From NCBI GenBank assembly GCA_002373085.1, contig DFJP01000105.1, positions 1 to 8,880 on the forward strand: 8,880 nucleotides of DNA. The letters are read 5' to 3'. The translations under genes were made by a program, and so were the position numbers. Positions 1 through 8,880 of this stretch are shown piece after piece. The notes under the pieces are model-generated. The model did no database searches. It was not told where the DNA came from and saw only the letters and a program-made list of their open reading frames with translations. Source of the DNA: Caryophanales bacterium UBA3668. Its GTDB lineage: Bacteria > Bacillota_I > Bacilli_A > RFN20 > CAG-826. The stretch's first letter is position 1, and each line of letters opens with the position of its first letter.

Positions 1-252
1 AAACTCGCCTTTGGTAACCGTATTTTGAAACAACTTGAAACATTCGTTCCAGTTTACGTTGGTTGTGGTGGAAGCGAAACTGAAGCATTTGACTTTATTT
101 TCACAAACAAAATCTTAAAGAAATTCGAATCCTTAAATATCGCTTTCTTAAAAGATGAATTAAAAGAATTACAAGCATTCTTAGACAAGCTTTACGGCAA
201 GAACCAATTCAAATTAGCGCAAGCAAAAATCTCAGCAATGCTTAAAGATTAA
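1..252 (+). CDS. C-terminal fragment of a probable McrB-like AAA+ ATPase (5' end outside window)
   Basis: The frame is open from base 1 and ends with TAA at 250-252, giving the last 83 residues of a longer protein; the TTG at 25 is an internal leucine codon, not a start. The fragment contains a hydrophobic strand (FVPVYVGCGG), then an alpha-helical stretch with the pattern FDFIFTNKILKKFE, then a C-terminal helix ending in KISAMLKD. This layout resembles what I know of the C-terminal lid of McrB-like AAA+ proteins that pair with DUF2357/McrC-like partners, where a KILPKL-type helix is followed by a final K(I/L)..M helix. The Walker A, Walker B and sensor motifs would lie upstream and cannot be seen. 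The next gene encodes a DUF2357-like protein 28 nt downstream, which fits the pairing. The family call is therefore an inference from a short C-terminus plus context. Confidence 0.6.
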   Translation, partial: KLAFGNRILKQLETFVPVYVGCGGSETEAFDFIFTNKILKKFESLNIAFLKDELKELQAFLDKLYGKNQFKLAQAKISAMLKD

Positions 253-268
253 TTAACATAGTTAATTA
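250..268. repeat. Perfect 8-bp inverted repeat across the stop codon of the upstream gene
   Basis: TAATTAAC (250-257) and GTTAATTA (261-268) are exact reverse complements separated by ATA. The left arm contains the TAA stop codon of the ATPase gene, and the right arm lies just before the start of the next gene. There is no T-run after it, so it is not a standard terminator, and the A/T-only core would make a weak RNA hairpin. It may be an operator, an mRNA-stability element or chance in AT-rich DNA. Confidence 0.4.
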
Positions 269-280
269 TTGAAATCATTT

Positions 281-2245
281 ATGGCAACAAGTGGCAAAAG
301 ACTTTTTCGCAAATACATCGATAAGATGAATTCCTTCAACAAAGATAAAAATGTTGAAGCGATTTACGATTCCTTGCTTAATGGAAGGAATTCTTATTTG
401 AGAATGTCAAAAAAAGGTTCATCTCGATTTGACCCAAGATGGATTACCGTTATTGAAGATTGCCTATTTGATTTAGGAGATATTATTAATAACCCAAGTG
501 AAGTGACCGCTATTGATAGTAGTATCACTCCAATTGAACTCGCTAAAAAGATTGATGGCAAGTCCGTCCAACATTTAGCGTCACACTCTCAATATGTCAA
601 AGAAATTGATGAAAATGGCAATGTCATTCCATCAAAGATTTTATCTCACTCTAATGTTCAAGATTTCCATACTTATGAGAATAGATTTATCGCGACTTTT
701 GTTCGTCGATTAGTCCTCTTCATTGAGAAACGTTATGAATTTATTCATAGTAATCTTAATTTAACTAAAGAAGATGTCTTGATGATCAAGAATAAATCTA
801 TCGTTGATGGTCAAGAAGTTGAAATCGAAACTAAAGTGACAATTAGAAGAGAAGAAAAAGACAAGAGTACGGTTGAGGCTAAAGAATATATCGAACGTAT
901 TAAATCAATGAGAGAATACGTCCAATTCTATTACACCTCTCCATTTATGAAGATGATGAAAAATGAACGAGATGTTCGTAAGCCAATCATCCAAACCAAT
1001 ATCTTAAGAAAAAATCCAAAATATCGAAAATGCTATGAAACATTCCTCTTCATTGAAAAATTCGATTCTTTAGGCGTGTCTTATCACTTAAATGAAAATT
1101 ATCAATCTTTCGATGAAGAAGAAAGAAGAAAAATGAATTTCTTAATGTTATCTGGCTTTTTAAGTGCTCAAACAAGAGACCGCATGGAAAGTATTAAGGT
1201 ATCGAATAAAGTTTATAAACCTAAATTCCTTACTAGCATGGATGATGAGATGTTCACCTATGGTGATATCCTTAAAGGTCCAATCGAATTCGTAAGAATT
1301 GATCAAACATATCGCGATTACTTAAGAAGTAAGATTAAGGCTGATTTGCCAGAACATCCAAATAAATACGAAAGAGCGTATTACGAAGAAGAATACGACT
1401 ATAAGAGAGAACAAAAACTCGATTCTCAAGAACTTGATCAACTTATCAACCGTAAGAAAAGAGAAATTGCAGCGTACGAGAAATATCTTGAAAAACTTAT
1501 TGCTCAGCGTGATAAGGAAGAGGCTGAACAAAGAAGAAAAGAACTCGAAGCTATTAAAGCTTATCAAGAAGGTCTTATCGCTCTTAAACGTCAAAAGATT
1601 ATTGAAGAAGCTGAGGCCAATAAGATTCCTTACGATATTAACGATGATATTGAGCCAGAAAGAACCATTGAGGATAATTCCTACTCAGACGAAGAAATTC
1701 CTCTAGAAGAGCCTTCTAGAAGCGAAGAATATGGTTTTGATGCAGTCGTTGAAAACGCTGAAGAAGAATTAATAGAAGAAAACGAACCTGAAGAACCAGT
1801 TTACACTGAAATTTCAACTGATAGTTCTGATAGTGAAGAAAGTGCTCCAATAGTTGTAGAACCTGTTAGTGAATCTATACCTATTAGTGAACCAGTTAAT
1901 GATGAATATCCTGAAGAACTCCTCGATGAAAGTGCATTTGCAGATAACGAAGTCGTCTACTTTGTTTCTGATGATGCAGAAATTAGAGAAGTCAATGGAC
2001 ATAAAGAAATGGTGTACTATTCCTCAAATTATGATGATGAGTTAGATAATGCATCTAATGAAGTCATTCCAAGCGTGGAAAACGAAGAAGTATATCAAGA
2101 AGTGACTGACGTTCCTGAAGAAAACGAGACTCTTTCAGATGAATCTGAAGGTGAAATTGTTTATTATGTCCAAGGAGATGCTGAAGTAATCGAAGTCGAT
2201 GGACATAAAGAATACATCTATAAGGCCGATGATGAGGACAAATAG
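281..2245 (+). CDS. DUF2357 / McrC-like protein with coiled coil and acidic tail, no visible nuclease
   Basis: From the ATG at 281 the protein has 654 residues. An in-frame TTG at 269 would add four residues; ATG is preferred, although neither start has a clear ribosome binding site. Residues 1-320 look like the DUF2357 core found beside McrB-like ATPases: a YENRF motif near 132-136 begins a long helix, and TNILRKNPKYRKCYETF near 239-255 matches the typical '(S/T).(L)...YR...' helix. McrC proteins normally follow this with a PD-(D/E)xK nuclease, but I see no D...ExK arrangement here. Instead residues about 380-447 form a Lys/Glu-rich coiled coil, and 455-654 form a strongly acidic, low-complexity tail with two related copies of a short motif (557-580 and 625-648). 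A role as a non-nucleolytic partner or scaffold of the upstream ATPase is inferred. The gene ends 2 nt before the signal peptidase gene. Confidence 0.65.
   Translation: MATSGKRLFRKYIDKMNSFNKDKNVEAIYDSLLNGRNSYLRMSKKGSSRFDPRWITVIEDCLFDLGDIINNPSEVTAIDSSITPIELAKKIDGKSVQHLASHSQYVKEIDENGNVIPSKILSHSNVQDFHTYENRFIATFVRRLVLFIEKRYEFIHSNLNLTKEDVLMIKNKSIVDGQEVEIETKVTIRREEKDKSTVEAKEYIERIKSMREYVQFYYTSPFMKMMKNERDVRKPIIQTNILRKNPKYRKCYETFLFIEKFDSLGVSYHLNENYQSFDEEERRKMNFLMLSGFLSAQTRDRMESIKVSNKVYKPKFLTSMDDEMFTYGDILKGPIEFVRIDQTYRDYLRSKIKADLPEHPNKYERAYYEEEYDYKREQKLDSQELDQLINRKKREIAAYEKYLEKLIAQRDKEEAEQRRKELEAIKAYQEGLIALKRQKIIEEAEANKIPYDINDDIEPERTIEDNSYSDEEIPLEEPSRSEEYGFDAVVENAEEELIEENEPEEPVYTEISTDSSDSEESAPIVVEPVSESIPISEPVNDEYPEELLDESAFADNEVVYFVSDDAEIREVNGHKEMVYYSSNYDDELDNASNEVIPSVENEEVYQEVTDVPEENETLSDESEGEIVYYVQGDAEVIEVDGHKEYIYKADDEDK
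1949..2020 (+). repeat. Copy 1 of a coding repeat in the acidic tail
   Basis: These 24 codons encode a segment with the pattern E-x-V-Y-x-V-x-x-D-A-E-x-x-E-V-x-G-H-K-E-x-x-Y. About 14 of 24 residues are identical to the copy at 2153-2224, and the substitutions are mostly conservative (V/I, F/Y, N/D). The alternating hydrophobic pattern suggests a small beta-hairpin within an otherwise disordered tail. Confidence 0.65.
2153..2224 (+). repeat. Copy 2 of the coding repeat, at the extreme C-terminus
   Basis: This is the second copy of the motif, 68 codons after the first and ending ten codons before the stop. The block DGHKEYIYK is the best conserved part (NGHKEMVYY in copy 1). Its placement at the very end of the protein suggests a C-terminal docking peptide; that role is inferred. 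Confidence 0.65.
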
Positions 2246-2247
2246 TT

Positions 2248-3210
2248 ATGGAAGAAGATATTAAAGATGTTAATGTTGAATCTTCTTCTATAGAAGAACC
2301 ATCTAATAACGGTAAAAGAATCAAAAGACCTAAAAGCAAGGCAAGAAAAATTATTGAATGGGTTCTCCTAGGTATATTCCTCGTCATATTCGGTGTTATC
2401 GCTGCTGGAACCATTGATTCAATGATCCATGCGAAAGAACATTATGGCGAAAAACTTAAGTTTGGAATTGGAAGCTTTGTCGTTTTGACTAATTCCATGG
2501 AGCCAAAATATAACAAAGATGACGCTCTTATCACTTATAAAGAGGATATGGAGGCTATTGTCTCTGAATTAAAAGCAGTTCCAAATGCGACAATTATCCA
2601 AGATGATGAAGTAAAATTCATCATTACTATGGATATTAACGACACTAATAAAGACCATGGGGTGGATATTACTTTCAAAAACGTCAACATGGGTATTGAC
2701 TGGAGCACATTCGAATTTGTTAATGATTGCTATAAAACTGGTCAAATGATTACAACTGGTTACGTCATGACCCATAGAATTATGGAATTACATGTCGATA
2801 AAACTATCGCATATGGCAACGGAAGATATACATTTGTTACCGCAGGTATCAATCATGGTGGAACCCATTCCTTAATGGGGCAGTATCAATTCGTTACCGA
2901 AAAGAATTACTTAGGAACTGTAAAAGTTAGTTCACAATTCTTAGGACAAATCTTCAAATTTGTCTCCTCTGCTTGGGGATTAATCATCTTATTATTAATT
3001 CCAGCCGCCTACTTAATTGTTGTTTCTGGAATTGATATCTTCCGAGCTTTGAAGGATACTGATGGAGAGGGAAGTAGTGAAACTAGAGTTTCTAATACAG
3101 ATAACTCTAAAAAGATTGAAGGATTAGAAGAGCTATCTGAAGAAGATAGAGAAAGACTTAAAAGAGAATTACTCGATCAAATGATCGAAGAGAAAGGAAA
3201 GAAGAAATAA
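2248..3210 (+). CDS. Signal peptidase I, Ser-His (SipW/Sec11-like) type, enlarged
   Basis: The product is a 320-residue membrane protease expected to cleave signal peptides on the outer face of the membrane. After about 35 polar, basic residues there is a transmembrane helix (about 36-57). The box SMEP (S83) carries the expected catalytic serine, and MTHRI gives H176, the histidine that replaces lysine in the ER/archaeal/SipW branch. Box E is recognisable as YTFVTAGINHGG (194-205) but lacks the acidic residue of the usual TKGDxN..D. A second transmembrane helix (about 244-266) and a charged cytoplasmic tail follow, as in SipW. The Ser-to-His interval of about 93 residues is roughly twice what I expect and contains an insert around 100-165. 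The start is the ATG 2 nt after the previous stop, with GAGG about 9 nt upstream. SipW-type enzymes often serve one or a few substrates; no substrate gene is in the window. Confidence 0.82.
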   Translation: MEEDIKDVNVESSSIEEPSNNGKRIKRPKSKARKIIEWVLLGIFLVIFGVIAAGTIDSMIHAKEHYGEKLKFGIGSFVVLTNSMEPKYNKDDALITYKEDMEAIVSELKAVPNATIIQDDEVKFIITMDINDTNKDHGVDITFKNVNMGIDWSTFEFVNDCYKTGQMITTGYVMTHRIMELHVDKTIAYGNGRYTFVTAGINHGGTHSLMGQYQFVTEKNYLGTVKVSSQFLGQIFKFVSSAWGLIILLLIPAAYLIVVSGIDIFRALKDTDGEGSSETRVSNTDNSKKIEGLEELSEEDRERLKRELLDQMIEEKGKKK

Positions 3211-4764
3211 ATGAAAGGTAACCCATTACTACGTTACTATATTGCCTTATCAATCACTCTTGCGGTGTTTGCGGCTTCTTTCATTGCGGTGTTTATTTCC
3301 GTTTTTGCGCCTGAATTATTCCACGCTGCACAAGGATTTATTACTGTTATTTTCTTTGCTGTGTCTCTTTCTACAGCGATTATTGCAGTCTTTACATTCT
3401 TATTTATTAATGCTCAACTTGCGATGTTTAAACAACTTAAGAGTGAAAATATTTATACACTAGGGCACGAATCATATTTTTTCAATTTATCTGCATTCCA
3501 AAACCGCGTTCTTAGATTAAGAAGAAATCCATCCTTGCATTTTAAAAAGCAATACTTAGTGGCGTTCTCTGCTACTTCTACAGAAACAAGCTATAACATT
3601 TTAAAAACCGATGCCTCGGTTCAATTAAATTATGAAATTTCTAATTTCATTGATGAAAAATATTCATTTGGCAAAGGTTTATTCTCGTTGAAGACAAATG
3701 TTTTTGGATTTAATCGTGGTGTTTTCTTCATCTATATGTTTGGTGTTACTGAAGAAGAAGTGAAAAATGTCGCTACCGAATTAACAAATAAAGTCTTTGA
3801 AATTGTTAAAGAAAAAGATCTAAAGATTTGGGCTCAACCATTCTTTGGAGTTACAGAAGTTGAACCAGATGAAAACCTTACTGGCGCGATTGAAAATGCT
3901 TTAATTGCTAGAAGCAATGGTGAAGCAAACTTCGAATCATTTGTTAAATATACAAAGAAAGAAAAAATTGAACACGAAGATGACTTGTTTGAAGAGATTA
4001 ATTACGCTCTTGAACATGGTGAATTCGTTCCATATTATCAACTTAAGTATAATTTAAAAAAGAAAGAAATTGTTTCTTGCGAAGCTTTAGCGAGATGGAA
4101 CTCTCCTAAGCGAGGTCTACTTACTCCTGGAACATTCGTTGAAAGAGCGGAGGAATTAGGCTTGCTTTCTTCTATTGACATCTATATTTTCGAAGCAGCG
4201 ATTAGAGATGTTTCTAACGCGCTTAAAAGAGGTCGTAGAGTGGTGCCTGTTTCATGTAACTTCTCGTTATATGAATTCTTCTCTCATACATTTATTGATA
4301 CAATTATGAACTTGCTTAATAAGTATCAAGTTCCAACCTCTTTAGTGGAAATTGAAATTACTGAAACAACTTCACAAGTTAACCAATTCTTATCTGTTTC
4401 TGTTATTAAGAAACTGAAAGACACTGGTATTCGAGTCTTAATGGATGACTATGGAGTTGGTTATTCTCAAATTTCTAACTTAAAGAACATTCCTTTTGAT
4501 GCGATTAAGATTGATAAATCTTACATTGATTTAATCTTAACAGATGAAAAGACTAAATCTATCGTTAAATTCCTTATTGATTTAGGTCACGTTAATGGAA
4601 TGGAAGTTATCGCTGAAGGTGTTGAAAAGAAAGAACAAGTTGAAGCTCTTAGAAGAATGGGAATCGATACGATTCAAGGATTCTATTATTCTAAAGCTGT
4701 CTCAATTGATGATTTCCAAGCGTTGCTTAAAGAAAATACTTTCGAAGGAGGTAATCAAAAATGA
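3211..4764 (+). CDS. Membrane-anchored degenerate GGDEF + intact EAL c-di-GMP phosphodiesterase
   Basis: This 517-residue protein probably hydrolyses cyclic di-GMP to pGpG at the inner membrane face. Two transmembrane helices (about 9-33 and 42-66) are joined by a very short outside loop, so any input is likely through the membrane or cytoplasm. Residues about 110-250 have a GGDEF fold, but the signature is replaced by N168-R-G-V-F172, so it should not synthesise c-di-GMP. The EAL domain (about 258-510) keeps every catalytic or metal-binding position I can place: E291 of EAL, N350, E382, D412 and D413 (DDYG), K433, E469 and E472 (EGVE), and Q489. The ATG follows the previous stop directly, with AAGGAAAG as ribosome binding site inside the upstream gene. 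Its end overlaps the next gene by 4 nt (ATGA), which implies translational coupling. The EAL assignment is firm; activity is predicted from residues only. Confidence 0.93.
   Translation: MKGNPLLRYYIALSITLAVFAASFIAVFISVFAPELFHAAQGFITVIFFAVSLSTAIIAVFTFLFINAQLAMFKQLKSENIYTLGHESYFFNLSAFQNRVLRLRRNPSLHFKKQYLVAFSATSTETSYNILKTDASVQLNYEISNFIDEKYSFGKGLFSLKTNVFGFNRGVFFIYMFGVTEEEVKNVATELTNKVFEIVKEKDLKIWAQPFFGVTEVEPDENLTGAIENALIARSNGEANFESFVKYTKKEKIEHEDDLFEEINYALEHGEFVPYYQLKYNLKKKEIVSCEALARWNSPKRGLLTPGTFVERAEELGLLSSIDIYIFEAAIRDVSNALKRGRRVVPVSCNFSLYEFFSHTFIDTIMNLLNKYQVPTSLVEIEITETTSQVNQFLSVSVIKKLKDTGIRVLMDDYGVGYSQISNLKNIPFDAIKIDKSYIDLILTDEKTKSIVKFLIDLGHVNGMEVIAEGVEKKEQVEALRRMGIDTIQGFYYSKAVSIDDFQALLKENTFEGGNQK
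4745..4751 (+). promoter_or_regulatory. Strong ribosome binding site
   Basis: AAGGAGG lies 9 nt before the ATG at 4761 and inside the end of the EAL gene. It fixes the start of the nucleosidase-like gene and indicates strong independent initiation in addition to the ATGA stop-start overlap. Confidence 0.9.
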
Positions 4765-5501
4765 TTGTCGTATTAGGTGCGTCTCATGATGATGTTCTAT
4801 ATTTCGATCGTGTTCTTTTAAATAGAAAAGAAGAACTTATCCTTAATAAATTTAAGGCATCAACAGGTACTATTTTCAATCAAGAAGTTTTGGTTATTTC
4901 TGGTTTATATAGTTCTGCTTTAACAAGCGCTGTTGTGACATATATTCTTCAAAAACACTATATTGACTTAGTTATCTGCGTTGGTAGATGCTTTGGATTA
5001 GATAAAGGAGTTGCCACTGGTGACATTGTTATCTCTAGTTCGATTATCGACACTAATATTGACTTAACTTCAATTTCAAATGTCGGACTAGGAGAAATTC
5101 CGGGATTTAAAAGAGAGTATAAAGTTCAAAACGATATTATTACTTACCTAAAGAAAGGTATTGCTAAAAGAACATACGTTACTTCTTATAACGCTTATTT
5201 CCTTTCTACCGATAACTTATCTGAGGAAGCAACTAGATTAATTTATCAAAAAAAGCATGTTTTCGGCATTAGTGACGAAAAGATTGTTGTTGATCATAAC
5301 TCAAGTGGTGCTGCTTTGGCAGCAAACATTAAAGATGTTCCTTTCGTAAGTATCAAAGTTGTACAAAATTCTTTAAATGAAAATACAAAAGTAGATGACT
5401 ATCTAAAAGTCCTTGAACGTTATATTGATTTAGGAAAAGCTGTAGCTGCTACTATCGGAGATATTGGTAGAAACGATGTCTTAAGAGGAGGACAATTCTA
5501 A
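4761..5501 (+). CDS. Nucleoside phosphorylase / MTA-SAH nucleosidase-fold protein, catalytic residues replaced
   Basis: The 246-residue product aligns by eye along its whole length with Pfs/MTAN-type nucleosidases (about 230 residues). The N-terminal strand VVLGASHDDV matches IIGAMEEEV; VICVGRCFGL (71-80) matches the VNTGSAGGL-type glycine loop; TGDIVIS (86-92) matches VGDIVVS; and LGEIPGF (110-116) matches the GQLPG loop. The residues that drive catalysis differ: the MEA/MES motif (Met and catalytic Glu) is H179-N180-S181, the catalytic Asp of the ..ISD motif is N203 in VVQN, and the first catalytic Glu is D11. Loss of both the ribose-binding Glu and the general-acid Asp predicts no ordinary hydrolase activity. 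A nucleotide- or nucleoside-binding sensor role is inferred from its position between two c-di-GMP-domain genes. It overlaps the upstream gene by 4 nt and the downstream gene by 1 nt. Confidence 0.82.
   Translation: MIVVLGASHDDVLYFDRVLLNRKEELILNKFKASTGTIFNQEVLVISGLYSSALTSAVVTYILQKHYIDLVICVGRCFGLDKGVATGDIVISSSIIDTNIDLTSISNVGLGEIPGFKREYKVQNDIITYLKKGIAKRTYVTSYNAYFLSTDNLSEEATRLIYQKKHVFGISDEKIVVDHNSSGAALAANIKDVPFVSIKVVQNSLNENTKVDDYLKVLERYIDLGKAVAATIGDIGRNDVLRGGQF
5484..5491 (+). promoter_or_regulatory. Strong ribosome binding site
   Basis: AGAGGAGG lies 9 nt upstream of the ATG at 5501, within the last codons of the nucleosidase-like gene. It supports the 5501 start, which overlaps the previous TAA by one base (TAATG). 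Confidence 0.88.
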
Positions 5502-8500
5502 TGGAAAGAAACAAAAAGAAAAATAGTATTAAAACTATTTTGAAGTCGTTCTCTTTGCTCCCAGTCTTTATGGCGGTTTTAGCCTCCTTAATCATTGCTC
5601 CTTTAGCTGTGGTTTATGTCATTAAAGAAGACATTGCCTTTTTAATTGTCGCAGTTGTTATTTTAGTCTTCCTTTTATTTGGATATGTTTTTGTTATTTT
5701 CTATATCTCGAGAATGGTTAGAGAAATCTTCTTTAATCAAATCTACGCAAAGACATACCGTAACTTTAAAAAGATTATTAAAAATGACATTAGTTTTGAA
5801 AGATACGATGACCAAAATATCGTTGAAATCGATGAATTAAATGAAATGGTCGATGATTTAAAAAAGAAACTCGATGGTGGATTCCTTGTTATTAGAGAGC
5901 AAGACTATTCATCTTTGAATTTAGAATATATCGATAAGTCAAAGAAGCTCATTACTTTTGAATCATTCAAAAAGAATATTGCTCATATCATCTATTTATC
6001 TCAATCATTCCGTAATATGGTTATCTCTATTTCTTATCCAATCAATCGTCCTTTAGAAGAAGAGGACAAGGATAGAATTCTTAACCTATACGCAAAAGTA
6101 TTTGAAGATTATTCAAATCCTCTATTTATTTATGGTGAAGATGGTAAGAGTTTATTAATTTATCTTCCTGTTATTTCTTCATTAAGTAGAGTTAAAGAAC
6201 AATTAGAACTCTCCTTACCTGATAGCGGTGTTGTTGTTAGAGGCGTTAACGGATTAGAGAATTATTCTCCTAAATTCGCTGCAGTTGTTTATCCATATTC
6301 CACTGAAGAATATATTTTAAGCGACTTAAGATACGCGAAAAGACAGGACAAAGAAATTAACTTCTTTATTCCAAATAGAACTGAAAGAAATAGTGAAAAA
6401 GACACTTTGATGAATACTTCAATGAATGTCAACTATATGTCAAAAATTGTCTCATGTATTTATGAACTTAACTATGACACAGTTGATAACGAAAAGAACA
6501 TTAAGGTCTTAAAGAAATTAGTTAACGATTTAGCAAGTTATCACAATATCGATGAAGCAGGCATTATATATTATAATGAAGCGATTAAAGCTTACATGCC
6601 TTATGTCACTGCTGATAATTCTAACTTATTTAAAGTTGGAGATAAGATTGATCCGTATTTTGTTAACTTATTAGCGAATAATGCTGATCCTGATAATTCG
6701 TATTATTTCTTTAGTAGAAATCACGCTAATAACCTTTTGGGTCGTCAATTCGATTTATATGGAATTACTAGTGGATTTTATCAATTAGCAAGAAATAGAA
6801 GCGGATTTCCGATTTCTTTAGTTTACTTCTTTAATAGAAAAGGAGTTTTGAACCTCAATTCTTATTTAAGAGAATCTTTCTTTGTTATCTGTTCTAGATT
6901 ATCTGGTTACTTTAATCAAAAAGAAGGAGCGGATTATGTTGATGTCCGTAATTCTGAAAATGAATACATCCTCTCTATGAGTGATTATATGATGTATAAA
7001 GTCAATGATGATTTTAACCTCGTTTATCTTTCTAACGGATTAAAGAAAGCATTCCCAAAAGCCGAAGTTGGTAAACCATGTCATAAATGTTTTTATGGCT
7101 TAGACAGACCATGTCACGATTGTCCAATTAAAACATATAAGAAAAAGAGCGCAACCATTAATAAGAGCGGTTATGATATTTCCTTAACATTAAATGACCG
7201 TAAGAGTCCTTTACGTACTTTGTTATGCACTAGAAATGATTCTAGTAGTGAAATTAACACGAAAGACTTATTCGATAGAGAATTCCTCACCTTCTCTTAT
7301 TTATCACTCTTAAATACCCTTAAAAACGAATATTACTCAAATGGTCGTGGATATATTCTTTTAATTAGTATTGATAATAGTGAAGACTTTATTTCTTCTC
7401 AAGGCAGTGAAGGCTTCTTATTTGCAACTAGATGCTTAATTAGAAATATTAAGAACAAATTAAAAACTAATGATGTCTTTATCTATAACCCAACCACTTT
7501 AGCGATTCACCTTGCTAATAAAGGTCACGCAGATATTTTAAATATCTGTGAAAATATTTACGAACTCTCAAAAGAACATTATTTTGATGATGGAAGTAAA
7601 GACAAATTTAATTTAACTTATTTACCAATAGGTTATCCACGTGGATACGCATCTGCGGATGATTTTATTAGACATATGACTGATGTTTATCACAACACTA
7701 GCTACGATAGAAACAAAGACTTTATTTACTTCTGCGACTATCCAATTAGCCGTAGTGCTTCTAAACGTGACTTCATGCTTTCAGTTATTGAAAACGAATT
7801 CTCTGGTCAAACATCTAACTCAGTTAATCTTCAACCAATCGTTTCAGTTAAGAATCGTCATATCTTCGGTGCTGAAATTCTTCTCCGTATTAACGACGTT
7901 CATAGAAATATCTTCTTTAACGCTGAAGAGATTTCCCGTATCGCTGAAAGCGAAAATAAGACTCATATCATTACAGAGTCTATCGTTAACTTTGTTGGTA
8001 AGCTTTATAAAGATTATGGCAAGAGCATCTTTAAGCTTCATGATTTCGGTCGTATCGCTATTAACATCGACCAAACTTACTTAAAAGATCCTAACTTAAT
8101 CAAAGCGGTTATTAAACTTTGCGAAGCAAATAATCTTCCAAATAACTTCATCTCATTTGAAATTCCAGAAGAGATGATTCCTGATAACATCGATAAGATT
8201 AAGAGATTTGCTGACGAATTATCTAACTATCATATCTATTTCTCTGTTGATAGATATACAGGTGCGTATATTGGTAGTGAAAAACTTAAAGATCTTGGCT
8301 TTAACGAAGTTAAGATTGCTCGTGACTTAATTACCAAGATTGATAAAGATCCAATTCAACTCAAGGCAGTTGCTGATATTGTTAAAAATGCGAAAAACGT
8401 CGGTATCTCTATTGCTTGCGTTGGTGTTGAAAATGAAGCACAATTCAAAGCACTTAAGAATCTTGATAGTGAAATGGTTGTCCAAGGTTACTACTTGTAT

Positions 8501-8554
8501 AAACCACTTACACGTGCAGACTTAATTACCGCATTAGTATCTTACGAACAATAA
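5501..8554 (+). CDS. Large membrane sensor: degenerate GGDEF, GAF-like, Cys-PAS, degenerate GGDEF, degenerate EAL
   Basis: This 1017-residue protein appears to be a receptor rather than an enzyme. Two transmembrane helices (about 17-41 and 45-70) are followed by a charged helical linker (78-125). Residues about 150-285 keep the GGDEF fold but have DGKSL (214-218) at the signature. About 315-475 looks GAF-like. About 485-580 is PAS-like and holds C527, C530, C538 and C541 in a CxxC-x7-CxxC arrangement. About 590-745 is a second GGDEF-like domain with NPTTL (663-667) in place of the signature. The C-terminal EAL domain (about 765-1010) retains E792, N855, E887, D917, K938, E977 and Q995, but the first Asp of the DD pair is V916 and the first Glu of EGVE is V974. 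Loss of a metal ligand and a key Glu predicts c-di-GMP binding without hydrolysis, as in LapD-type receptors. It is the last gene before the terminator. GAF and PAS boundaries are approximate. Confidence 0.88.
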   Translation: MERNKKKNSIKTILKSFSLLPVFMAVLASLIIAPLAVVYVIKEDIAFLIVAVVILVFLLFGYVFVIFYISRMVREIFFNQIYAKTYRNFKKIIKNDISFERYDDQNIVEIDELNEMVDDLKKKLDGGFLVIREQDYSSLNLEYIDKSKKLITFESFKKNIAHIIYLSQSFRNMVISISYPINRPLEEEDKDRILNLYAKVFEDYSNPLFIYGEDGKSLLIYLPVISSLSRVKEQLELSLPDSGVVVRGVNGLENYSPKFAAVVYPYSTEEYILSDLRYAKRQDKEINFFIPNRTERNSEKDTLMNTSMNVNYMSKIVSCIYELNYDTVDNEKNIKVLKKLVNDLASYHNIDEAGIIYYNEAIKAYMPYVTADNSNLFKVGDKIDPYFVNLLANNADPDNSYYFFSRNHANNLLGRQFDLYGITSGFYQLARNRSGFPISLVYFFNRKGVLNLNSYLRESFFVICSRLSGYFNQKEGADYVDVRNSENEYILSMSDYMMYKVNDDFNLVYLSNGLKKAFPKAEVGKPCHKCFYGLDRPCHDCPIKTYKKKSATINKSGYDISLTLNDRKSPLRTLLCTRNDSSSEINTKDLFDREFLTFSYLSLLNTLKNEYYSNGRGYILLISIDNSEDFISSQGSEGFLFATRCLIRNIKNKLKTNDVFIYNPTTLAIHLANKGHADILNICENIYELSKEHYFDDGSKDKFNLTYLPIGYPRGYASADDFIRHMTDVYHNTSYDRNKDFIYFCDYPISRSASKRDFMLSVIENEFSGQTSNSVNLQPIVSVKNRHIFGAEILLRINDVHRNIFFNAEEISRIAESENKTHIITESIVNFVGKLYKDYGKSIFKLHDFGRIAINIDQTYLKDPNLIKAVIKLCEANNLPNNFISFEIPEEMIPDNIDKIKRFADELSNYHIYFSVDRYTGAYIGSEKLKDLGFNEVKIARDLITKIDKDPIQLKAVADIVKNAKNVGISIACVGVENEAQFKALKNLDSEMVVQGYYLYKPLTRADLITALVSYEQ

Positions 8555-8559
8555 CAAAT

Positions 8560-8586
8560 AGGATCGGTTGTCCGATCCTTTTTTTT
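8560..8586 (+). terminator. Intrinsic terminator of the operon
   Basis: A perfect 8-bp stem (AGGATCGG, 8560-8567, with CCGATCCT, 8572-8579) closed by a TTGT loop is followed by a run of eight T (8579-8586). It starts 5 nt after the stop codon of the 1017-residue protein. Confidence 0.95.
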
Positions 8587-8691
8587 CACGTAAAGTATTT
8601 AATTTTAATTAAAGCAAAAGAAATTAAATAAGTTAAGTCAAGTAGATTTAATGTTTTTCTTTTTGGTGACTTTTTCTTTGAAGAAGGCACA

Positions 8692-8829
8692 ATGAAAACA
8701 AGTTTGCTATATGGATTGTTTAAAAAACTAGGTATAATTTACTTAGTTTCGAAACAAACTCCACTAGTAAACATACCGAAGATAGTACAGGCAAGTTTAC
8801 GACATGTGGCAACTGCAGCTACCTTGTGA
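8692..8829 (+). CDS. Possible 45-residue small protein or leader peptide
   Basis: An ATG at 8692 is preceded by AAGAAGG (8681-8687) at a short 4-nt spacing and opens a 45-codon frame ending in TGA at 8827-8829. The product would start MKTSLLYGLFKKLGIIYLV and be basic and hydrophobic, with no family I recognise. Against it: it uses ATA and CTA repeatedly, codons that are scarce in the neighbouring genes; a -10-like box and a palindrome lie inside the frame; and the stop falls in the loop of the terminator at 8815-8849. A frame of this length can arise by chance. For it: the ribosome binding site, and the end at a terminator, which would suit a leader peptide. Confidence 0.25.
   Translation: MKTSLLYGLFKKLGIIYLVSKQTPLVNIPKIVQASLRHVATAATL
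8725..8749 (+). promoter_or_regulatory. -10 box inside an operator-like palindrome
   Basis: TATAAT at 8733-8738 is a consensus -10 element. It sits within an inverted repeat of 10-base arms, AAACTAGGTA (8725-8734) and TACTTAGTTT (8740-8749), which match at 9 of 10 positions around the 5-bp spacer TAATT. A repressor dimer bound here would block RNA polymerase. No good -35 box is found at 16-18 nt spacing (the nearest TTG, at 8716, is only 11 nt from the -10 box), so the promoter would need an activator, or the -10 match is chance. Transcription would begin near 8745. Confidence 0.45.
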
Positions 8830-8849
8830 GGAAGGCCGCTGCTTTTTTT
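8745..8849 (+). ncRNA. Candidate structured small RNA or attenuated leader, class unknown
   Basis: Downstream of the -10-like box several segments are complementary in nested order. AGTTT (8745-8749) can pair with AAACT (8756-8760). CCAC (8761-8764) can pair with GTGG (8806-8809), enclosing a perfect GTAAAC (8767-8772) / GTTTAC (8795-8800) stem. The terminator hairpin follows at once. GTGGC (8806-8810) can instead pair with GCTAC (8818-8822), which would break both the outer helix and the terminator stem, as in a riboswitch or attenuator. The sequence does not fit the c-di-GMP, T-box, TPP or purine consensus patterns I know. The ends are estimates, and single-sequence folding is weak evidence. 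Confidence 0.35.
8815..8849 (+). terminator. Intrinsic terminator in the downstream intergenic region
   Basis: GCAGC (8815-8819) pairs with GCTGC (8838-8842). After a 2x2 internal loop, CCTT (8822-8825 region) pairs with AAGG (8832-8835), leaving GTGAGG (8826-8831) as the loop. Seven T follow (8843-8849). As the long operon already ends at 8586, this must end a separate transcript. Confidence 0.8.
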
Positions 8850-8880
8850 CTGATAATAGAATTTGGTTATTTGATTATCA

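Follow-up and report, generated by a model that had tools for sequence, protein, structure and literature searches.

The DNA analysed here (the window) is an 8,880-nt stretch, positions 1 to 8,880 on the forward strand of contig DFJP01000105.1 (GCA_002373085.1). It carries the greater part of an operon in which genes for a McrB-like ATPase, a DUF2357 protein and a signal-peptidase-like protein are followed by genes for a first EAL protein (EAL-a), a nucleosidase-like protein and a second EAL protein (EAL-b), EAL being the domain of cyclic di-GMP (c-di-GMP) phosphodiesterases. All six frames lie on the plus strand (Table 1); the first is open at its 5' end and the second begins at 269 or 281. 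With the ATG at 281 taken as the start, the genes are spaced by 28, 2, 0, -4 and -1 nt. An earlier reading of the window from its letters alone (the sequence-only reading) had given this layout of five full genes, the 3' end of a sixth and a single terminator correctly. Pfam recognized the EAL domains of EAL-a (E = 1.2e-63) and EAL-b (3.7e-33) and the PNP_UDP_1 family (PF01048, 5.3e-12) in the nucleosidase-like protein. The window gave no Rfam match at E <= 1 and no match in a tRNA search, and none of its six proteins was matched by PADLOC.

Conservation of the gene order

Scanning a genome collection with 30 peptidase homologues as queries resulted in 45 core loci, recorded as uncultured Erysipelotrichaceae, Bacillales and Bacilli, with one each as Mollicutes, Clostridiales and Gammaproteobacteria; many of the isolate names indicate the ruminant gut. 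The order ATPase-DUF2357-peptidase-EAL-a-nucleosidase-like-EAL-b on one strand was kept, up to the contig ends, in 44 of the 45 loci, the exception being L042, where EAL-b is missing and its place is taken by a second copy of the riboswitch and by secreted proteins of the SipW type. The ATPase gene is found in 37 core loci, DUF2357 in 43, EAL-a in 44, the nucleosidase-like gene in 41 and EAL-b in 37, and apart from L042 the missing genes reflect contig edges. With the window included, the median spacings of the loci are 10, -1, -8, -4 and -1 nt. Because the order recurs in 44 loci, the six-gene arrangement is not due to chance. The sequence-only reading had regarded the genes as one unit and proposed a search of related genomes, including the genes upstream; the order is indeed not confined to this assembly, and secreted proteins and a riboswitch were found upstream of it (see below).

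Since the core loci were found by means of the peptidase, they are no test of the association between ATPase and peptidase. Among 196 genomes of the same taxonomic order the ATPase profile matched in 127 and the peptidase profile in 77 (E <= 0.001), and 80 further regions (L078-L157) were fetched, one of them (L100) a repeat of the L045 contig. In these regions 50 ATPases reach 560 bits. DUF2357 follows 49 of the 50 and the peptidase is present in 44 of 46 informative cases; further downstream, EAL-a was present in 35/40, the nucleosidase-like gene in 32/37 and EAL-b in 19/31, and upstream the secreted SUB proteins and the U4 protein described below in 45/46 and 36/39. As 17 of the 50 come from regions chosen partly by peptidase or DUF2357 matches, the 33 loci picked by the ATPase alone make a cleaner test. 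Here DUF2357 was found in 33/33, the peptidase in 28/29, EAL-a in 24/26, the nucleosidase-like gene in 22/25 and EAL-b in 15/20, with SUB upstream in 30/30 and U4 in 27/27. Two loci (L083 and L111) were scored as misses solely through a spurious opposite-strand open reading frame (ORF) that interrupted the scripted run; as the ORFs come from a script that simply takes the longest frame, small genes and a number of start positions should be read as approximations (u1 of L001 is split). It is clear that the ATPase/DUF2357 pair is not usually apart from the peptidase and EAL genes, which would have spoken against the unit proposed in the sequence-only reading. The more distant ATPases (L137-L157) have other layouts, and no SUB, EAL or nucleosidase-like profile matches were found beside them; the c-di-GMP and filament genes therefore track this ATPase subfamily and not McrB-like genes generally.

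Secreted proteins upstream of the ATPase

In the relatives the full unit consists of a riboswitch, the membrane-anchored base protein U4, the SUB genes and then the genes from the ATPase to EAL-b. One to four SUB genes are present per locus, with a minimum of two in the core clade; their products are secreted and carry a SipW-type cleavage site (A-W-Y/F). A SipW-type signal peptide with an aromatic residue after the predicted cleavage site is present in 92 of 93 full-length SUB proteins, in line with the rule that aromatic residues follow the SipW cleavage site, as given in the available part of PMC10269814. The processing of exported proteins put forward in the sequence-only reading is supported, because secreted proteins with SipW-type sites precede the ATPase; the filament-like substrates, encoded outside the window, were missed.

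When a predicted SUB structure was compared by VIA-align, TasA fibres and the TasA-like archaeal bundling pili or threads (7ueg, 7pnb) ranked highest, a comparison by fold only and with a ranking that is only middling. Foldseek gave no significant PDB match for either of the two predicted models. Ten proteins, namely SUB, U4-type and further proteins encoded upstream and one ATPase, were searched against Pfam and NCBIfam, and no SUB family was named. From its context the operon is strongly linked to filaments and c-di-GMP. A 2.86-Mb contig attributed to Treponema rectale carries one SUB homologue (P0354), and locus L044 is recorded as Gammaproteobacteria; these may be misassigned records or cases of transfer.

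A c-di-GMP-I riboswitch at the start of the operon

Rfam identified a c-di-GMP-I riboswitch just 5' of the operon in 7/7 core and 6/7 diverged loci (absent from L123), and no further family over the same 286 kb. A model built from 12 of the Rfam-found copies matched 28 times among 46 core sources and 43 times among 71 others, namely the 80 loci L078-L157 except L081, L087, L089, L130-L134 and L136; around the distant ATPases (21 loci) it had no match. Among loci with U4 and no less than 450 nt of sequence before it, the riboswitch is present in 19/19 core cases and in 26/34 diverged cases drawn from these 71, mostly 90-240 nt 5' of U4. The c-di-GMP link of the sequence-only reading gains strength from this riboswitch, with which the operon of the relatives begins. 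GGDEF proteins, as well as EAL proteins, were present in 19/19 genomes examined.

In 18 of 23 core-clade riboswitches a sequence complementary to the 3' strand of the aptamer lies further downstream, with a U tract after it (shuffled mean 0.25, max 2); the same was seen in 7 of 31 diverged riboswitches (shuffled mean 0.55, max 2). Since the 5' arm of the core-clade terminator is the 3' strand of the aptamer, ligand binding should prevent termination, and judging from this folding c-di-GMP should switch the operon ON, at least in the core clade. A second c-di-GMP-I riboswitch lies 3' of the conserved part of the operon in some loci (L043:16241-16316, L042:13185-13264, L008:16286-16363, L119:16522-16596, L121:4271-4345 and L118:15287-15364), and is followed for example by a gene for a 1300-aa protein (L043) or for SipW-type secreted proteins (L042).

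The signal-peptidase-like protein

The peptidase of the window matches the NCBIfam models SipW (4.6e-8) and TIGR02228 (8.9e-7), both under the curated cut-offs. Peptidases almost identical to it occur on contigs as long as 21 kb. The active-site Ser and His are conserved in every one of the 46 core sequences (the 45 loci and the window) and in a wider set of 88, which holds one duplicate and so represents 87 distinct loci. SipW retains its Asp; this residue is absent from 46/46 core proteins, in which the GDN box reads GIN in 39, GTN in 6 and GVN in 1, and GD is retained in 32 of 42 diverged homologues. The Asp loss maps to a single change on a quick tree of the ATPase on which 78 of the 88 scored sequences (77 different) are placed. 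The loss of the Asp had been overlooked in the sequence-only reading; because this residue is missing, the protein is not a SipW sensu stricto.

SipA of Streptococcus pyogenes is one of the top three structural matches to the peptidase; searching PDB sequences with the alignment of the peptidase returned nothing useful, and no relative was confirmed in viral contigs. Some of the same genomes (G007, G008, G011 and G017) encode other signal-peptidase-like proteins with an intact GD box, and TIGR02228 passes its cut-off in no more than 2 of 19 genomes, in one case with an operon peptidase, although this profile also scores the family poorly. Between the Ser and His boxes (window 2520-2760) the length varies strongly among relatives. 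In L078 (G019:C35) a second, divergent version was seen, where the peptidase precedes the ATPase, scores above the TIGR02228 cut-off and keeps GDN, with SUB-like genes on both sides.

The cytosolic C-terminal helix of the peptidase is repeated at the C-terminus (DLSDEQKEALKKELLKDL) of a small protein of 112-137 aa with two transmembrane (TM) segments encoded near the operon (L043:3376-3753; also L001-L003, L007, L008, L011, L012, L014, L015, L020, L023, L028, L034, L042 and L045). A stricter tail pattern proved too narrow; a looser one was found in 32/45 core peptidases, 9/9 clustered small proteins and 7/1210 other ORFs, all 7 of which resemble the small two-TM protein by eye.

The ATPase, its DUF2357 partner and CoCoPALM

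The 83-aa fragment encoded at the 5' end of the window aligns to the C-terminus of the approximately 505-aa AAA_5/McrB-like ATPase of the loci. This part of the protein excludes the NNDD motif, which, like Walker A and Walker B (LDEMN), is present in 37/37 ATPases of the relatives. McrB was the sole molecule matched in a PDB sequence search with the ATPase (best E 9e-5). An N-terminal TM segment is found in the relatives, where by eye a hydrophobic stretch is followed by RKYVRF and a helical-looking region, all conserved. Assignment to the NxD clade is by pattern, N-N-D-D occurring in 37/37 and an ungapped HMMER alignment pairing the second D with the D of McrB. Pfam gave no match for the DUF2357 protein of the window itself, while PF09823 (DUF2357) is precomputed for several of its homologues and passes the curated threshold in 15 of the 19 genomes of relatives; in 14 of these the match is, by position, the operon's own gene. 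After the DUF2357 domain follows a charged helical region, a coiled coil as judged by eye. A PDB search with the DUF2357 alignment gave low-complexity FtsY matches only, and no nuclease family (PD-(D/E)xK or HEPN) was called in the six window proteins by Pfam, NCBIfam or PADLOC.

The sequence-only reading had not recognized a described system here. On the features compared, however, the ATPase/DUF2357/peptidase trio fits CoCoPALM, a clade named in a 2024 paper and found in a census of restriction systems (PMC11090510). According to the available parts of that paper, CoCoPALM comprises an NxD-clade McrB-like GTPase (NxD usually followed by D or E) with an FtsB-like TM and coiled-coil N-terminus, a McrC/DUF2357 partner with a coiled coil and an associated protein of the signal peptidase family; the likeness extends from the NxD-D motif of the GTPase, and possibly its N-terminal TM and coiled coil, to the adjoining peptidase gene. 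The same parts give no substrates, EAL/PNP genes or riboswitch (the main text nowhere uses "c-di-GMP" or "EAL") and leave CoCoPALM to a later publication. None was found among the matches listed for that name, nor, among the matches listed in open-licence PMC, any paper tying CoCoPALM or DUF2357 to biofilm filaments or c-di-GMP.

Two other kinds of loci with related ATPases were seen in the same taxonomic order. One is a second conserved gene order (L149:7331-17493, with similar sizes in L143, L145, L146 and L153-L156) of a signal-peptidase-like protein, an approximately 605-aa McrB-like ATPase, an approximately 450-aa protein (TackOD1/zinc-ribbon under the cut-off), an ABC ATPase, an ABC-permease-like protein, an approximately 810-aa protein and a List_Bact_rpt protein, the domains being scanned in L149 only. 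No EAL, SUB or riboswitch matches were found in these loci, which look like a separate export system with the same ATPase family. The other is a tandem ATPase-DUF2357-like-ATPase arrangement (L138-L141, L144, L147, L148 and L150-L152), most cases adjoining 1000-1400-aa proteins; these loci had no peptidase match and are possibly defence-type relatives.

The two EAL proteins and the nucleosidase-like protein

All catalytic residues are retained by EAL-a in every covering sequence (42-44 of 45), from which it is an intact phosphodiesterase as far as residues can tell. EAL-b has kept the first D of DDFG in a PDB alignment and lost the second D, together with the E of EGVE, in 32/32 covering sequences, and is thus by its residue pattern a degenerate domain and a probable c-di-GMP receptor. 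Upstream of this domain three cysteines (C, ten residues, CxxC) are invariant in 36/36 covering sequences and could form a metal or redox sensor. The nucleosidase-like protein matches 5'-methylthioadenosine/S-adenosylhomocysteine nucleosidase (MTAN) structures in PDB (2.8e-22), but the position of the MTAN Asp197 is lost in 41/41 sequences (N, R, K, A or S instead), and an acid is found at the Glu174 position in 6/41; we take these to be the catalytic positions in MTAN numbering. The residue patterns therefore point to one enzyme, one receptor-like protein and a dead nucleoside-binding fold between them. That the nucleosidase-like gene is dead had been predicted correctly in the sequence-only reading; the two EAL genes of its c-di-GMP sensor set are not equivalent to each other.

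The NCBIfam LapD model matches both EAL-a and EAL-b, far under the cut-off. Like LapD-type receptors, EAL-b is membrane-bound and has a dead EAL domain, and in this operon it is accompanied by a phosphodiesterase predicted to be active; its N-terminal architecture with the three-Cys motif is different, and no LapG/LapA-like partner was identified. We take the resemblance to be one of logic, not of membership.

Features of the window

Table 1 Features of the 8,880-nt window.
Feature	Position	Strand	Basis
3' end of gene for membrane-anchored McrB-like AAA+ ATPase/GTPase (CoCoPALM "McrB")	1..252	+	C-terminal alignment to the ATPases of the loci
McrC-like DUF2357 protein with charged coiled-coil/disordered tail	281..2245	+	PF09823 in homologues
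SipW/Sec11-type signal-peptidase-like membrane protein	2248..3210	+	
Peptidase Ser83 (NSMEP), conserved	2494..2496	+	46/46 core, 88/88 wider set
Peptidase His176 (THR), conserved	2773..2775	+	46/46 core, 88/88 wider set
G-I-N in place of canonical G-D-N box (Asp position lost, Asn retained)	2845..2853	+	
Conserved cytosolic C-terminal helix of peptidase (LSxEDRERLKxELLDxMI)	3124..3195	+	Also in small two-TM protein of the loci
EAL-a, membrane protein with predicted intact c-di-GMP phosphodiesterase (EAL) domain	3211..4764	+	Pfam and catalytic residues
MTA/SAH-nucleosidase-like protein, catalytically dead	4761..5501	+	PF01048, MTAN PDB match, Asp197 position lost
EAL-b, membrane protein with C-terminal degenerate EAL domain, probable c-di-GMP receptor	5501..8554	+	Pfam and residue losses
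Three-cysteine motif of EAL-b (C, ten residues, CxxC), possible metal site	7079..7123	+	36/36 covering sequences
Intrinsic terminator of the operon	8560..8587	+	Hairpin 8560-8579 and T run after the last gene

The region 3' of the terminator (8587-8880) is AT-rich and intergenic, with a GCAGC...GCTGC hairpin and a T run near 8815-8850. A candidate RNA at 8735-8850 had no Rfam match and folded about as well as shuffled sequences (z -0.87).

Discussion

We consider it likely that the window represents the 3' two thirds of a c-di-GMP-controlled operon for filament (pilus) assembly in uncultured Bacilli. The sequences demonstrate the operon, the riboswitch and the residue losses; the roles in filament formation and as a motor we infer from them. 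In the mechanism that we propose, high c-di-GMP would block the riboswitch terminator, for which the competing terminator is seen in the core clade, and the operon would be transcribed. SUB would pass through Sec and present its A-W-[YF] site to the SipW-like protein, and cleavage after the A would free an N-terminal donor strand for donor-strand exchange, by analogy with TasA. The peptidase-like protein, with Ser and His but no Asp, may cleave by a dyad or an Asn-assisted site, or may instead hold the subunits in the manner of S. pyogenes SipA. Its cytosolic helix would dock on the membrane-anchored McrB-like ring with the DUF2357 activator, which could gate or energize subunit release, so that the ATPase would serve the peptidase or assembly platform and not DNA. 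At this platform the dead EAL-b may sense c-di-GMP while EAL-a degrades it, giving a local feedback, and the dead nucleosidase fold could be an adaptor. More tentative, and in our judgement nearly an even call, is the full proposal of a McrBC-type NTPase turned from DNA restriction to motor or gate of a TasA-like pilus, with c-di-GMP wired in at three levels (riboswitch, active EAL and dead EAL receptor) and a Ser-His(-Asn) peptidase site that arose once.

A defence module of the type IV restriction or CoCoNuT-like kind that merely adjoins signal peptidase and c-di-GMP genes would account for the McrB-like ATPase and for DUF2357 as the N-terminal domain of McrC, and would agree with the tandem loci devoid of a peptidase and, as far as the available parts of PMC11090510 go, with the origin of CoCoPALM in a restriction-system census. 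It is nevertheless very improbable given the steady linkage with secreted SUB proteins and the riboswitch, a DUF2357 protein in which no nuclease domain was called, the lack of PADLOC matches for the six window proteins and of confirmed peptidase relatives in viral contigs. The operon could also be a plain SipW-TasA-type matrix operon, where the ATPase, DUF2357 and nucleosidase genes are passengers with no role in filament assembly. SUB, the SipW-like peptidase and the predicted, possibly TasA-like fold mirror tapA-sipW-tasA, and to our knowledge TasA has no dedicated ATPase. Passengers would be lost, however, while the ATPase-chosen loci nearly always adjoin SUB, DUF2357 and the peptidase and the ATPase motifs are invariant, making this explanation improbable as well.

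It is possible, though we rather doubt it, that the peptidase-like protein is a pseudoenzyme scaffold and that SUB is cleaved by another peptidase, for which the GD-intact proteins of some genomes would be candidates. The loss of the GDN-box Asp throughout the core, fitting one event, and the structural match agree with this, since S. pyogenes SipA, according to the available part of the literature, is without Ser and Lys yet essential for pilus assembly. SipA, however, works with sortase pili, and in our family the Asp alone is lost, Ser and His being invariant in all 88 sequences; TIGR02228 moreover points to few other candidates, with the reservation made above about this profile. With respect to the riboswitch, its direction is read from folding alone and the terminator is clear in a minority of diverged loci, so that c-di-GMP might repress the filaments through an OFF switch; this is unlikely when the core-clade terminator is built on the aptamer's own 3' strand.

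The unit has several things in common with tapA-sipW-tasA of Bacillus subtilis and sipW-tasA/calY of Bacillus cereus: secreted subunits, here of putative filaments, in which aromatic residues follow the cleavage site, a cognate SipW-type peptidase and, by prediction, a fold that may be TasA-like. We know of no McrB/DUF2357 pair or EAL genes in these operons. By analogy the unit may work like a SipW-TasA system to which a dedicated McrBC-type NTPase has been added. Control differs, tapA-sipW-tasA being under SinR/SlrR according to the available part of PMC13082335, whereas a c-di-GMP riboswitch is found here. Within the literature searched, the secreted TasA-like clients, the base protein and the c-di-GMP riboswitch appear to be new, as do the EAL-a/dead nucleosidase/EAL-b tail and the loss, in a single event, of the peptidase Asp.

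As far as our searches show, the operon offers the first concrete client and regulator for CoCoPALM, so far only a name. The prediction drawn from it is that one branch of the restriction-type McrBC family acts in extracellular filament assembly. The coupling of c-di-GMP to protein filaments in Gram-positive gut bacteria becomes testable, and the clade-wide loss of one Asp next to an invariant Ser and His is a natural experiment in protease evolution. Uncultured Bacilli of the ruminant gut are likely to carry TasA-like filaments on their surface.

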